This document shows, piece after piece, positions 15,114-37,236 of a stretch of DNA of 53,170 nt. A model generated the notes under the pieces. The model was not told where the DNA came from. It made no database searches and saw nothing but the letters and a program-made list of their open reading frames with translations. Where the stretch lies: the NCBI RefSeq assembly GCF_005116455.1, contig NZ_SWBP01000010.1, positions 1-53,170 on the forward strand, written 5' to 3'. A program made the translations under genes and the position numbers. The first letter of the stretch is position 1. Each line of letters opens with the position of its first letter. The DNA comes from Pedobacter cryophilus (GTDB lineage Bacteria; Bacteroidota; Bacteroidia; Sphingobacteriales; Sphingobacteriaceae).

Positions 15114-15159
15114 GATTTTATCTTTATTGATATAGTAAAAGTGAGCTTTTACAAAAGAG

Positions 15160-15183
15160 AAATCCATACGATAAACTGCGTAT
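15160..15183 (-). promoter_or_regulatory. Putative response-regulator operator, copy 1
   Basis: On the minus strand the core reads ATACGCAGTTTATCGTAT (15183-15166), an inverted repeat ATACG-N8-CGTAT followed by GGATTT. It lies 52 bases upstream of the ATG of the 1684-residue T9SS protein. The 24-bp block matches copy 2 (17567-17590) at 23 positions. Binding by the adjacent NarL-type regulator is inference. Confidence 0.7.
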
Positions 15184-15236
15184 CTTTTAATACTCCTTGC
15201 ATTAAAGGGGCTAGGTGGAAAATGAAAGGAATAAAA

Positions 15237-15269
15237 AATAGGGAAACCTTTTTTAAAGATTTCCCTATT
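15237..15269 (-). terminator. Intrinsic terminator of the lipoprotein operon
   Basis: Arms AATAGGGAAA and TTTCCCTATT flank a 13-base loop; on the minus strand a TTTTTTATT tract follows. It ends the transcript of the 584-residue and lipoprotein genes and separates it from the downstream giant gene. Confidence 0.88.
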
Positions 15270-15295
15270 AATTGATTTAAGTTTTTAACGTTTCC

Positions 15296-15733
15296 TTAAA
15301 AGGTAGCTGTTAATTTACCATCGTAAAAAGACCATGCTTGGTTTTCTAAAATCACGGTTGCAGTTAAACTATTTGTACCTATAGCGGTAATAATCATTTG
15401 TCCACTACCTGCATTATAATCTACAGTTCCTTTTTTATAAGTCCCCCTAATTACGTAAGTACCAACAGCAGTAACTGCTGATGCAGAAAAAAGTACTGTA
15501 TTATTACTTACATCTTTGGCTACAATGGTATAATCGTTATTACTTTTTGTTGTAATAACACTTGTGGCAGTAAAGTTTTCGGGAGCCGACCATGCCTGAG
15601 TTGTAGTGTTATAAAAATTAAATTTAGCAGTTAGGCTTCCTTCAACATTTGTTGAGATTGGATCTTCTTTTTCGCAACCAATTGTAAACATTACTGCTAT
15701 TAATAATAGCATACTTTTAATTTGATTTTTCAT
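15296..15733 (-). CDS. Small lipoprotein of unknown function
   Basis: The 145-residue product has a lipoprotein signal (MKNQIKSMLLLIAVMFTIGC, lipobox ending at Cys20), followed by EKED, so it is probably membrane anchored by a lipid. The remaining about 120 residues look like a single beta-sandwich domain; no family recognised. It lies 28 bases downstream of the 584-residue secreted protein gene and ends before a terminator, so both form one operon under the operator at 17567-17590. Confidence 0.85.
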   Translation of the reverse strand: MKNQIKSMLLLIAVMFTIGCEKEDPISTNVEGSLTAKFNFYNTTTQAWSAPENFTATSVITTKSNNDYTIVAKDVSNNTVLFSASAVTAVGTYVIRGTYKKGTVDYNAGSGQMIITAIGTNSLTATVILENQAWSFYDGKLTATF

Positions 15734-15761
15734 GATTGTTTTATCTATTAAGTTTTAAAAT

Positions 15762-17516
15762 TTAATTGTTCATTGTAGCCCATTCTGTATCGTAATCTGG
15801 ATTAGATTTTTCTTTAGCTTTTATATCTTGTAAAGCTTTTGTAAATGCAGCTGTTAAACTATTGATGTTAAGCACATTGTTAGCTAAATCCGCTGGACTA
15901 ACTTTTTTATTTTTTTGGAGATCATACTTAGCCCCATTTAAGCTTCCTTTTAAATAATGGGTTTGATAAGTGTCGCCTAAAACAGGAGCTAAAAGTTCGA
16001 AATTTACTGTTGTAGTCATGTAGGCAGAACTTCCTTCAAAGTTTAGTTTAAAATTTAAGATGAGTTTCAAAAGTGAGTTTACGCCAGTTTCTTGCATCAC
16101 CTTATGCTCTGTAGTGTTAGCCGCTAAAGATTCGGCTATTGGCCTGATACCATTTAAACTTTTTGTGTTTTTGTAAGTGACAAAAAACTCGTCATGTGTA
16201 TTTTCTTCGGGTGTATCGTAAGGTGTAGCTGCTTTATAAGCCACAGAATTGGTGATTTTATCTACATCAACTAGCTTAACCCCAAACTCAGTAATTAAGG
16301 CATTTGTTATTTTACCATACAATTGGTTTAAAACATCGTCCCAAACTTCGGTAGGGAATTGTGGGAATGATGCAATTTTAGTGGTGGTTTCATAACCACC
16401 TCCCATTACATATTTAGTTTTTTGATCATAAAATGATGTACTTCCTTTAGCTGCAAAACCCATTATACCTAAGGTTTTCATACTTCCAAAATTTGGGCTG
16501 TTGATGGCACTTGATTTATTTACAACATATTCAGTTGACCCTTCTTTTCCTTTTGACTCTATCCCTTTATTAAAAGCAGGTTTAGTGGTTACATTAATAA
16601 ACATTCCATCGGTAACCATTGCCCCATATTTAACTTCGGGATAAATGCCTGTAACATTAACAGCGCTTTCGTTTTTGCTTCTAGATACTTGTAAATAACA
16701 ACCGTTAAAAGCAATATTTGCCTCGGCTGCACCGGCCATATTTCTAAACATAGCAGGCGGAATCACTATTTTCTTTTTAGGTGCAAAATAGCCCACTGCA
16801 TAAAATGTTTTAATTCCAATTTGTGAACCAGTAAGCTGCACTAAAATTGGCGTTTTTGTATCTTCGGGCATATCTTCAAACTCTAATACTACATCTTTAT
16901 TTAAATCTAAAGTTGCATTTGAGCTTTGGCCATTAACCGAAAGTAATTTGATTTTATGGGTTGGAGGGTTGATGGTAAAAGAAGAGTTTTGACCTTTATC
17001 GCTAACAATTTCTACCTTTCTTGGCTCTTTATTTTTTGAAAACGATGAGTAAACACCCATAGTAACATAGTTTGCTAGCACACCATCAACTTTAACGCTT
17101 CCGTTAATTTTGGTGGCTTTCCAGCCAGTTTTACTAGTAAACATCATCGTGTATATTGAGCCTCCAGGTTCCCATCCTCCAAAAAAATCTTGTCCAATTT
17201 CTTGTACTGCTAATGGATGTAAATTTGTCATTAAGCCAGGTGTAAGTGTAACAGATGTTAAGTCATCAGTATTGCCTACCATACCCATTGCCCCGCCGCC
17301 TACAGCGAAAGCGGCTTTTGCCATTTTGCCTACTACTTTATTCATTAAGCCTGCACCAAAGCCACCACCTTCTTTCTTTGGTTTGTCGGCTGTGGTTTCT
17401 TCTGTTTTAGTAGTATCTTTTTTACCCACTAAGCCTTTTAGTTTCCCTAATTGGGCAAATGAGTTTAAGCTAAAGCCGATAATTAAAACGGTAACAGTAA
17501 AAATTTTTCTGTTCAT
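15762..17516 (-). CDS. Secreted protein of unknown function, glycine-rich N-terminus
   Basis: A 584-residue protein with signal peptide (MNRKIFTVTVLIIGFSLNSF, cleavage near AQL). A low-complexity basic and threonine-rich linker (KKDTTKTEETTADKPKKEGG) and a glycine/alanine-rich stretch (about 50-82, with GGGFGAGLMNKVVGKMAKAA) come next. The bulk is a beta-rich region without a motif I recognise and without a T9SS sorting domain. It could be periplasmic or outer-membrane associated. The adjacent lipoprotein gene follows by 28 bases. The operator-like inverted repeat lies 56 bases upstream of the ATG. Confidence 0.87.
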   Translation of the reverse strand: MNRKIFTVTVLIIGFSLNSFAQLGKLKGLVGKKDTTKTEETTADKPKKEGGGFGAGLMNKVVGKMAKAAFAVGGGAMGMVGNTDDLTSVTLTPGLMTNLHPLAVQEIGQDFFGGWEPGGSIYTMMFTSKTGWKATKINGSVKVDGVLANYVTMGVYSSFSKNKEPRKVEIVSDKGQNSSFTINPPTHKIKLLSVNGQSSNATLDLNKDVVLEFEDMPEDTKTPILVQLTGSQIGIKTFYAVGYFAPKKKIVIPPAMFRNMAGAAEANIAFNGCYLQVSRSKNESAVNVTGIYPEVKYGAMVTDGMFINVTTKPAFNKGIESKGKEGSTEYVVNKSSAINSPNFGSMKTLGIMGFAAKGSTSFYDQKTKYVMGGGYETTTKIASFPQFPTEVWDDVLNQLYGKITNALITEFGVKLVDVDKITNSVAYKAATPYDTPEENTHDEFFVTYKNTKSLNGIRPIAESLAANTTEHKVMQETGVNSLLKLILNFKLNFEGSSAYMTTTVNFELLAPVLGDTYQTHYLKGSLNGAKYDLQKNKKVSPADLANNVLNINSLTAAFTKALQDIKAKEKSNPDYDTEWATMNN

Positions 17517-17566
17517 GATTTCTTTTGTTTGATTGATAGCATCAAATTGATGAAAAATGAAGAGGT

Positions 17567-17590
17567 AAATCCATACGATGAACTGCGTAT
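17567..17590 (-). promoter_or_regulatory. Putative response-regulator operator, copy 2
   Basis: On the minus strand the core reads ATACGCAGTTCATCGTAT (17590-17573), followed by GGATTT as in copy 1. It lies 56 bases upstream of the 584-residue gene. The block is nearly identical to the one at 15160-15183, although the surrounding DNA is unrelated, which argues for function rather than a recent duplication. Confidence 0.7.
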
Positions 17591-17639
17591 TTATATGCTT
17601 ATAAGCTGTATTTTGAGTTGAGATTTTAACAAACCCTTT

Positions 17640-17756
17640 ATTTGAAACACAGGCTTGGTTTCCTAAACCCGTGTGAAGCGGCAGCCCGGACTGAGTTTTT
17701 TACGAAGGAGGACTATAGCGTAAAACGGGACTAACGCTGTTTGAAGTGCAGGTTTA
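17640..17756. repeat. Intergenic dispersed repeat with GCAGCCCGG motif
   Basis: A GC-richer island (GCGGCAGCCCGGACTG, then TTTTTTACGAAGGAG, TATAGCGTAAAACGGGAC, TAACGC) in otherwise AT-rich DNA. It resembles the family of intergenic repeats common in Bacteroidota; related GCAGCCCGG/CCGGGCT islands occur at about 42415-42510 and 52282-52395. It lies after the response regulator gene and might act in termination or mRNA stability, which is untested. Confidence 0.55.
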
Positions 17757-17772
17757 AGTTTTTCTAAAAATT

Positions 17773-18420
17773 TTAGATTAATCTGTTTTGGGTTGCTTTT
17801 TCTAAAGCGTTGGTCTTGTTATTTACTTGTAGTTTTCTGTAAATATTTTCGATATGTTTTCGAACGGTACCATAACTGATGTATAGATTATCGGCTATTT
17901 TCTCATAACTGAGGCCATTTTTAAGCTGACTTAACAATTCTAATTCTCTTTTGGTTAAACCAAAGTCTTGTAATTGAGTTTGCTTATCGTGTAATACTGG
18001 GTTTCTTAATAAATTGAGCACTTTAAGCGCTATACCTGCCGACATGGCTGCCCCGCCAGATAAGGTTTCTATCACCGATTGATGCAAAATATCGGCAGTT
18101 TCTTCTTTAAGTAAATAACCGGATGCGCCAGCTAAAATGGCTTTAAAAATATTCTCATCGTCATCAAAGGTGGTGAGCATCAATACTTTAATTTGTGGAT
18201 GTAGCATTTTTAATGTTCGGGTGGTTTCTATGCCTCCAATTCCGGGCATTTGAATATCCATGAGCACAATATCTATTGGATGCTGCTGTATATTTTTTAT
18301 TAATTCTTCGCCATTGTAAGCTGTTAGCAAAACTTTAAACTCGGGGTAAGGGTTTAATTTACTTAAACAGGTTTGCAATGCTAAGCTGTTATCTTCTGCT
18401 ATGGCTATGGTTATGGGCAT
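17773..18420 (-). CDS. NarL/LuxR-family response regulator
   Basis: Receiver domain then C-terminal LuxR helix-turn-helix. Seen: acidic pair ED near the N-terminus (IAIAEDNS), phospho-acceptor Asp in VLMDIQMPGIGG (residue 55), LMLTTFDDD, switch Lys in GYLLKEE, and the HTH segment LTKRELELLSQLKNGLSYEKIADNLYISYGTVRKHIENIYRKL (quoted here in fragments of one domain: LTKRELELL, YEKIADNLY, GTVRKHIENIYRKL). The frame is open to an ATG at 18441, but MPITIAIAEDNS at 18420 is the normal N-terminus and puts the operator 44 bases upstream, as at its two other occurrences. It pairs with the histidine kinase gene just upstream and is predicted to control the nearby secreted-protein operons and itself. Confidence 0.93.
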   Translation of the reverse strand: MPITIAIAEDNSLALQTCLSKLNPYPEFKVLLTAYNGEELIKNIQQHPIDIVLMDIQMPGIGGIETTRTLKMLHPQIKVLMLTTFDDDENIFKAILAGASGYLLKEETADILHQSVIETLSGGAAMSAGIALKVLNLLRNPVLHDKQTQLQDFGLTKRELELLSQLKNGLSYEKIADNLYISYGTVRKHIENIYRKLQVNNKTNALEKATQNRLI

Positions 18421-18464
18421 TTTCAAATCAACTCCAAACATCTTGGTTTCTTTTTAAAATTGAA

Positions 18465-18482
18465 ATACGAATTGTTGCGTAT
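18465..18482 (-). promoter_or_regulatory. Putative response-regulator operator, copy 3
   Basis: Minus strand ATACGCAACAATTCGTAT, again ATACGCA-N5-TCGTAT with the arms extended to AATACG/CGTATT. It lies in the 43-base gap between the histidine kinase stop and the response regulator gene, starting 2 bases after the kinase stop. This suggests autoregulation of the regulator gene separately from the kinase. Confidence 0.65.
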
Positions 18483-36003: not shown

Positions 36004-37236
36004 ATGTTTAAATACTTATTCATTTTACTCTTTTCTGTTTACGTTAATGAAACCTATGCTCAAGAAAATTTCACCATTAGCGGCATTGTAAAAGATAAAC
36101 AGGGAGAATCTTTACCTGGAGCAGGAATTTTTGTGAGTGGTTATAAAAACGCAACAATTAGTAATAATAATGGCGAGTTTAGCTTGAAATTAAACCCCGG
36201 AAATTATGAATTATTGGTGAAAATGGTAGGTTTTAAATCTGGTATATTTCAGGTTATTGTTTCTGACAAAAATATAGGATTAAACATTACGTTGGTAGAA
36301 AACACCATTCAACTCAATGAAGTGGTGGTGAAACCCGATTTAAATAGAGAATACAACTTAAAAACTTTTACCGAATTTTTTATTGGAAAAACGCCAAATG
36401 CAGCACAATGCAAAATCATCAATCCTGATGTACTTTATCTAAATTTCGATCAGCAAAGCAGAACCTTAACAGCCAGCTGCGATGAATTCTTGTTGATAGA
36501 AAACAAAGCTTTGGGTTATAAAATCAAATACTTAATCAAAGAATTTGAATATGATATGGTGAATAGAATCATTTTCTACCAAGGTTCTCCTTATTATGAA
36601 GATTTACCGGCTTCTGATAGTAAAAAAAAGCAATGGGCTAAAAAGCGATTAGAAGCTTACAATGGTTCTCCTCAACATTTTTTTCGCTCTTTATACGAAG
36701 AGAATAGTATTAAAGAAGGCTTTGTGATACATAAATTAATAAAACATATAAATACTCAACGTCCGCCAGATAGTTTAATTAAAGCTAATATTAGACGTTT
36801 TAGGGCAAAAACAGGTGATACATTTTTTTTAAATGGTAAAACAAATGATTCGTTGGAATATTGGCTTTCTAAAAACAACATGCCAAAAACAATCTCCACT
36901 TTAAATAAGGCTGAAGTATTGCCAGATACATTGGTAAAAACTTTCGATAGCAACATTAAAAAAATAGACTTTAATGATATTCTTTATGTCGTTTATAAAA
37001 ACGAGAAGGAACATCCAATTTATGCAAATCTATTCAACCAGTCCATTTCACGACCTTTAGATATGCCTAATTACCAAATAAGTTTAATCAACTTAAGTAT
37101 AAGACCTATTTACTTTTATCAAAGTGGAGCTATATATAATACAAAATCAATGATTTATGAAGGCTATTGGTCTTGGGAAAAAGTTGCAGACAGCGTCCCA
37201 ATGGATTATCTCCCCGTTAGGTTGCAAGCACACTAA
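36004..37236 (+). CDS. Secreted protein with carboxypeptidase-like regulatory domain
   Basis: The frame is open from a TTG at 35998, but the ATG at 36004 (MFKYLFILLFSVYVNETYAQ) gives a normal signal peptide and 410 residues. A CarboxypepD_reg-like beta-sandwich follows (FTISGIVKDKQGESLPGAGI ... LKLNPGNYELLVKMVGFKSG, about 22-100), as seen at the N-terminus of many TonB-dependent receptors, but no beta-barrel is present. The remaining 300 residues are unknown. It is likely outer-membrane or periplasm-associated. A bidirectional hairpin follows. Confidence 0.88.
   Translation: MFKYLFILLFSVYVNETYAQENFTISGIVKDKQGESLPGAGIFVSGYKNATISNNNGEFSLKLNPGNYELLVKMVGFKSGIFQVIVSDKNIGLNITLVENTIQLNEVVVKPDLNREYNLKTFTEFFIGKTPNAAQCKIINPDVLYLNFDQQSRTLTASCDEFLLIENKALGYKIKYLIKEFEYDMVNRIIFYQGSPYYEDLPASDSKKKQWAKKRLEAYNGSPQHFFRSLYEENSIKEGFVIHKLIKHINTQRPPDSLIKANIRRFRAKTGDTFFLNGKTNDSLEYWLSKNNMPKTISTLNKAEVLPDTLVKTFDSNIKKIDFNDILYVVYKNEKEHPIYANLFNQSISRPLDMPNYQISLINLSIRPIYFYQSGAIYNTKSMIYEGYWSWEKVADSVPMDYLPVRLQAH

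Follow-up and report, generated by a model that had tools for sequence, protein, structure and literature searches.

A probable NarL-type operator shared by secreted-protein genes and the adjacent response regulator gene in Pedobacter cryophilus

Escherichia coli NarL, a response regulator composed of receiver and GerE domains, activates transcription from 7-2-7 sites, i.e., inverted heptamers two bases apart, located near -43 upstream of the activated promoter (-40 to -49 at napF and -38 to -47 at yeaR, in the available portion of PMC4549865). Among Bacteroidota, the nearest named two-component systems are FimS/FimR and PorX/PorY of Porphyromonas gingivalis, the former controlling surface proteins and the latter being linked to the type IX secretion system (T9SS). 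FimR was tested on the mfa1 promoter by electrophoretic mobility shift assay, and the accessible part of that article (PMC1974823) names no palindrome. UhpB/UhpA, of the NarL/FixJ family, likewise combines a HisKA_3 kinase with a NarL-type regulator. To our knowledge, few two-component systems of Bacteroidota have a known regulon. This analysis concerns a 53,170-nucleotide stretch of Pedobacter cryophilus DNA (contig NZ_SWBP01000010.1, referred to as the window), in which the inverted repeat ATACGCA-N5-TCGTAT recurs upstream of genes for a T9SS cargo protein, a secreted protein and a NarL-type response regulator. The repeat is very probably the operator of this adjacent regulator, which would activate all three units through a -7 box held at a fixed distance from the site. 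As read from the sequence, the site architecture and the proposed mode are those of NarL; no description of this site or regulon was found in the open-licence literature.

Comparison with NarL reveals both shared and distinctive features. Like a NarL operator, the site consists of inverted heptamers with 2 bp between them (TAC-N10-GTA), and the engineered NarL site TACCCCTAAAGGGGTA displays the same 16-bp geometry (PMC4549865, as far as available). The half-site is TACG here and TACC for NarL, the two proteins are 27% identical, and the present system differs further in its Bacteroidota -7 promoter, its TPR kinase and its secreted-protein targets. The TPR kinase resembles FimS along residues 4-548, with a score of 78.2 bits against a cut-off of 600 for the NCBIfam equivalog; as a candidate UhpB, it reached 97.2 bits against 408. 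The regulator matched PorX in the receiver domain only, at 46.1 bits against an NCBIfam cut-off of 300. FimS/FimR and PorX/PorY are the nearest named systems of the phylum, at scores below their equivalog cut-offs.

The window contains three exact copies of ATACGCA-N5-TCGTAT, all on the minus strand, which is also the strand of the genes (Table 1). Site 1 is separated by 52 bp from the ATG of the T9SS gene (15113) and site 2 by 56 bp from that of the gene for the 584-residue protein (17516), while site 3 occupies the gap between the kinase stop codon (18485) and the beginning of the regulator open reading frame (ORF; 18441). A sequence-only reading of this DNA had described the three like-oriented copies, their placement relative to these genes, and a 24-bp block shared by copies 1 and 2 with 23 identical bases; each of these descriptions proved accurate. 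When up to two mismatches were allowed, the window yielded five matches, including copy 3 read in reverse and one at 36693-36710 with two mismatches, compared with a mean of 0.88 and a maximum of 4 in 100 shuffles of the window. The whole genome (3.99 Mb, 16 contigs) holds ATACG-N8-CGTAT at five places, three of them within the 3.3 kb considered here, a distribution that excludes random placement. The remaining two lie inside a gene (C10:144418) and directly after the stop codon of a LuxR helix-turn-helix (HTH) gene (C9:780418). The distance between the arms is also constrained. Nine loci of the family contained 27 sites with N8 spacing, one with N5, one with N11, and none with N4, N6, N7, N9, N10 or N12, and 17 loci, mostly from Flavobacteriaceae, contained 23 N8 sites across 14 loci and no site when the pattern was reversed or the spacing was N6, N7, N9 or N10.

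The DNA downstream of the sites shows an element at a fixed distance. Among 55 sites of regulator-linked loci, oriented by hand and aligned on their 3' ends, TTTG starts exactly 27 nucleotides past the site in 31; the next-best TTTG offset had a count of 3, and 2000 rotations gave at most 6. Hand orientation omitted L034 (a near-copy of L033), L122:1505, and the second orientations of L154:11866 and L070:7086. After removal of near-copies, TTT was present at offset 27 in 43 of 49 sites and A at offset 24 in 84%. Without hand selection, TTT was found at offset 27 on at least one side in 51 of 55 exact sites (26 loci), and TTTG in 32. The sigma-A -7 box of Flavobacterium psychrophilum, TAnnTTTG, spans -12 to -5 (PMC9723704, in the part available). 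Because the TTTG motif fits the Bacteroidota sigma-A -7 box, the site would lie at about -52 to -35, with its centre at about -43.5. With the transcription start placed by reference to the same partial source, this would correspond to the position near -42 of a class II-like activator. The sequence-only reading had not included this promoter geometry. The fixed spacing of the -7 box makes activation the likely mode of regulation and also raises doubt about the apparent start codon of the regulator. The regulator ORF begins with ATGTTTG, which contains the predicted -7 box at offsets 27-30, so that this ATG would not be transcribed and translation would begin instead from 18420, where there is another ATG in the same frame. 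The proposed product begins MPITIAIAEDN and would be 215 residues long. A comparison of six regulators found ATG at the codon matching 18420 in three and TTG at the matching place in two. In ORFs of regulators like this one, what reads as a start codon may in some cases be the -7 box of the promoter.

Conservation of the sites was evaluated in relatives. Homologues of the 584-residue protein are present in 3 of 40 relatives, the best of them, 46% identical, in G003. This genome carries six exact sites on one strand between 9650 and 18454 (8.8 kb), which precede two regulator copies, the 584-residue homologue, a lipoprotein-like gene, a beta-barrel-like gene and a T9SS homologue. Three sites in one cluster were found in each of G001 and G017 and two sites in each of G010, G008, G012 and G014; outside the genus, G160 has four, and G205 and G157 have two each. 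A composite DNA pattern, defined as the site with A at offset 24 and TTT at offset 27, was then related to the presence of the regulator. Of 201 family genomes, 17 encode the regulator at E<=1e-60, and 10 contain a cluster, i.e., at least two composite matches within about 10 kb, judged by eye from the list. All 10 clustered genomes are among the 17, and the regulator sits in each cluster (Fisher p 8e-13 at E<=1e-60, and 4e-17 at E<=1e-80, a cut-off picked after the hits were known). An exact self-site, beginning 40-45 nucleotides upstream of the start of the protein alignment, accompanies 13 of 22 related family regulators, and 12 of the 13 regulators that pass E<=1e-80. Of 80 regulators in named genomes, only those of Psychroserpens and Emticicia are immediately preceded by an exact site. 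Exact sites were nevertheless found within the fetched 5-21 kb for 14 of the 17 close regulators in this group, mostly before secreted-protein or lipoprotein genes; the 17/63 split of these loci was made after the self-site result, with L066 (42% identity) placed in the first group. The sequence-only reading had proposed that the kinase and regulator control the secreted-protein genes and the regulator gene itself. Rarity, conservation upstream of orthologues, as in G003, G001 and G017, and co-occurrence with the regulator in all 10 clustered genomes support this proposal.

The genes preceded by sites are mostly predicted to encode exported products. Among target genes, taken as those starting 40-95 bp from a site (regulator and kinase excluded; L034, L035, L036 and L065 omitted), 29 of 30 specify Sec-like N-termini, compared with 99 of 302 neighbours (p 2e-12), where a Sec-like call represents a crude hydrophobicity score rather than the output of a trained predictor. 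The composite pattern was also used to search 247 genomes of the class by DNA alone. It matched in 28, including the genome of origin, and the matches elsewhere numbered 38 in 35 loci, 34 of these loci being from other families and one from the same family. The base following TTT, which is not part of the pattern, was G in 30 of the 38 matches against a background of 19% (p 2e-15). A gene with a Sec-like N-terminus followed 21 of the matches, a regulator gene followed 3, and another gene followed 5, 4 of which fell just below the Sec-like score cut-off; the other 9 had no gene start at 35-95 bp. Six of the 38 matches were inside an ORF, and two of these fell in the last part of the kinase gene, immediately ahead of the regulator. 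A related regulator with a T[VI]RKH helix was encoded in 9 of the 35 loci.

From the observed site, with its linkage, conservation, spacing and fixed -7 box, we infer the following regulatory path. The TPR sensor kinase, presumably periplasmic in its sensory part, would phosphorylate the regulator in response to a signal, possibly a secreted protein. A periplasmic location of the TPR region is predicted because a hydrophobic segment is present at the N-terminus of the kinase and one membrane segment further along. A regulator dimer would then bind the inverted heptamers, TACGNNN-NN-NNNCGTA, and the occupied site, centred near -43.5, would replace the -33 element of a sigma-A promoter and allow the regulator to recruit RNA polymerase to the TAnnTTTG-like -7 box. 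The units switched on in this manner would be the regulator itself, creating positive feedback, the 584-residue protein together with the lipoprotein, and the 1684-residue T9SS cargo.

Several observations weigh against parts of this reading. At the level of the promoter, 4 of the 55 exact sites lack TTT at offset 27 on both sides, and the box downstream of site 1 is TTTA, with a final A instead of the consensus G. With regard to the proposed regulator start, the second regulator copy of G003 has neither ATG nor TTG at this position, and the predicted mRNA leader would be only ~10 nucleotides. The one-mismatch pattern is not enriched in the genome (37 places, compared with 80 for the reversed control), so weaker members of the regulon cannot be called. 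The link between site and regulator is also imperfect: 9 of the 22 related family regulators lack a self-site, five of them having TVRKHIANIY or TIRKHIENIY helices, and the G001:C4 regulator (E 3e-81) has no site in 19 kb. Conversely, in G011, of the same genus, a site is followed by a good -7 box although the genome encodes no regulator at E<=1e-60, and no such regulator is encoded within about 9 kb in 26 of the 35 class loci. Such sites require that related regulators share the site or act from afar. A one-to-one correspondence of site and regulator is therefore not expected; the site is probably common to related regulators, and the regulon is probably scattered in other families. The same unaccompanied sites, along with the LuxR-HTH gene adjoining C9:780418, would also be accommodated if the sites belonged to another regulator that prefers the same DNA, such as a paralogue or another LuxR-HTH protein, and the adjacent pair were merely one of its targets. 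This is improbable, as all 10 clustered genomes hold the present regulator inside the cluster, and of the nine GerE matches in the P. cryophilus genome (E<=0.001), only three are receiver-HTH proteins by eye, with no such palindrome upstream of the other two receiver-HTH genes.

The direction and level of control were considered along similar lines. Repression through coverage of the promoter has a precedent in NarL, which represses frdA via a 7-2-7 site near the transcription start, but the sites described here stop a constant ~27 bases short of TTTG on its upstream side, the location from which NarL activates napF and yeaR (both from the available part of PMC4549865), and the regulator is unlikely to be a repressor at these sites. 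The inverted repeat could instead function in RNA, as a hairpin of the 5' leader, and it does allow a fold of 5 or 6 pairs with a z of -4.87 for copy 3. For copies 1 and 2, however, z was only -0.66 and -0.54, an Rfam scan of the region gave a single sub-threshold hit away from the sites, and a site upstream of the predicted -7 box would not be in the transcript it controls, which together leave an RNA role very unlikely. The 23 of 24 bases common to copies 1 and 2 might suggest a dispersed repeat or recent duplication devoid of function. This explanation has next to no probability and is already refuted by conservation: there are five copies per genome, orthologous places are retained where the proteins are 46% identical, and the sites have one spacing and a fixed -7 box.

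Table 1. Features of the candidate regulon and related sites (window positions unless a contig is named)
Feature	Position	Strand	Basis or remark
Site 1, ATACGCAGTTTATCGTAT	15166..15183	-	Exact match; upstream of T9SS gene
Site 2, ATACGCAGTTCATCGTAT	17573..17590	-	Exact match; upstream of 584-residue protein/lipoprotein operon
Site 3, ATACGCAACAATTCGTAT	18465..18482	-	Exact match; after the kinase stop, ahead of the regulator; predicted to serve autoregulation
Predicted -7 box core TTTA, T9SS promoter	15136..15139	-	Offset 27-30 from site 1
Predicted -7 box core TTTG, 584-residue protein operon	17543..17546	-	Promoter alignment offset
Predicted -7 box core TTTG, regulator promoter	18435..18438	-	Overlaps apparent regulator ORF start ATGTTTG
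Histidine kinase, 591 residues	18485..20260	-	Pfam and translation: N-terminal hydrophobic segment, TPR repeats, membrane segment, HisKA_3, HATPase_c
NarL-type response regulator ORF, 222 residues	17773..18441	-	Response_reg and GerE above Pfam cut-offs
Secreted protein, 584 residues	15762..17516	-	Translation; no Pfam/NCBIfam family
Putative lipoprotein, 145 residues	15296..15733	-	Translation; 28 bp downstream of the 584-residue protein gene, same operon
Terminator-like hairpin	15237..15269	-	Consensus scan; after lipoprotein gene, before site 1
T9SS cargo, 1684 residues	10059..15113	-	Por_Secre_tail above cut-off, Pfam and NCBIfam
ATACC-N8-GGTAT sites	G000 C1:139272, C9:384695, C12:201922, C12:220127, C12:221026		L162, L167, L172, L173, L174

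The order of elements along the minus strand is kinase, site 3, regulator, site 2, the gene for the 584-residue protein, the lipoprotein gene, the hairpin, site 1 and the T9SS gene. The regulator is of the NarL/FixJ type, with Response_reg at 83.9 bits (cut-off 30.2) and GerE at 55 bits (cut-off 23.5). Alignment of eight regulators revealed that the recognition helix TVRKHIENIY is invariant, as are D17, D62, T90 and K112, which we take to be the phospho-acceptor aspartate and other receiver residues. The C-terminal sorting domain of the 1684-residue protein scored 38.4 bits with TIGR04183 (cut-off 23) and 34.6 with PF18962 (cut-off 27), identifying it as a T9SS cargo. The 584-residue protein matched no family in Pfam or NCBIfam and the putative lipoprotein matched none in Pfam. 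The consensus scan that located the hairpin gave seven terminator-like sites in the region, compared with 3.9 in shuffles. An intergenic repeat at 17661-17736, between the 584-residue protein gene and the regulator, has four more partial copies in the genome (73-79% identity) and a weak match to the Rfam Flavo-1 RNA (21.3 bits against 42).

In this system the site, the position of the promoter, the self-control and the secreted targets can all be recognized in the sequence, and they are seen again in several families. Uncharacterised surface proteins and T9SS proteins are thereby placed in a regulon that is open to testing, and the promoter grammar can be used to look for further regulons. A broader generalization is offered tentatively and with considerable doubt: NarL-type regulators of Bacteroidota may follow an operator code in which an 18-bp palindrome replaces the -33 element at a fixed distance from the -7 box, the half-sites are specific to the regulator (TACG here, and TACC for a second envelope-gene set of the same genome), and the class mainly controls secreted or surface proteins and often its own gene. 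If this code holds true, two-component regulons would be predictable across the phylum from DNA alone.

Other candidate operators were noted in the course of this work. The motif ATACC-N8-GGTAT, followed by TTTR at an equal distance, is present five times in the P. cryophilus genome and not at all as a reversed control (Table 1), in several cases about 40-55 bp before lipoprotein or secreted-protein genes. A second NarL-type regulator may use it as an operator; because the motif was chosen from a candidate list, its genome count is no independent test. At L071:10013, the gene of a more distantly related regulator, whose helix is of the TVRSH type, is preceded by a different palindrome, ATCCCCTGATTCGGGGAT, with TTTG at an unchanged offset.

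The arrangement of sites in other genomes also varies. In four genomes of the same genus (L037, L040, L041 and L045), one of which is G011, with no regulator at E<=1e-60, a solo site precedes a gene pair encoding 126-128 and then 600-616 residues; TTT is at offset 27 in all four, and BamB-like PQQ repeats are present in L037. Several Flavobacteriaceae loci (L053, L054, L056, L057, L060, L063 and L122) often have the site after a gene for 314-319 residues, and in L054, L057, L063 and L122 a gene further upstream resembles, from its N-terminal sequence, that of an alanyl-tRNA synthetase. L020 and L031 contain tandem kinase-regulator pairs in which each regulator has its own site, an arrangement that suggests local duplication.

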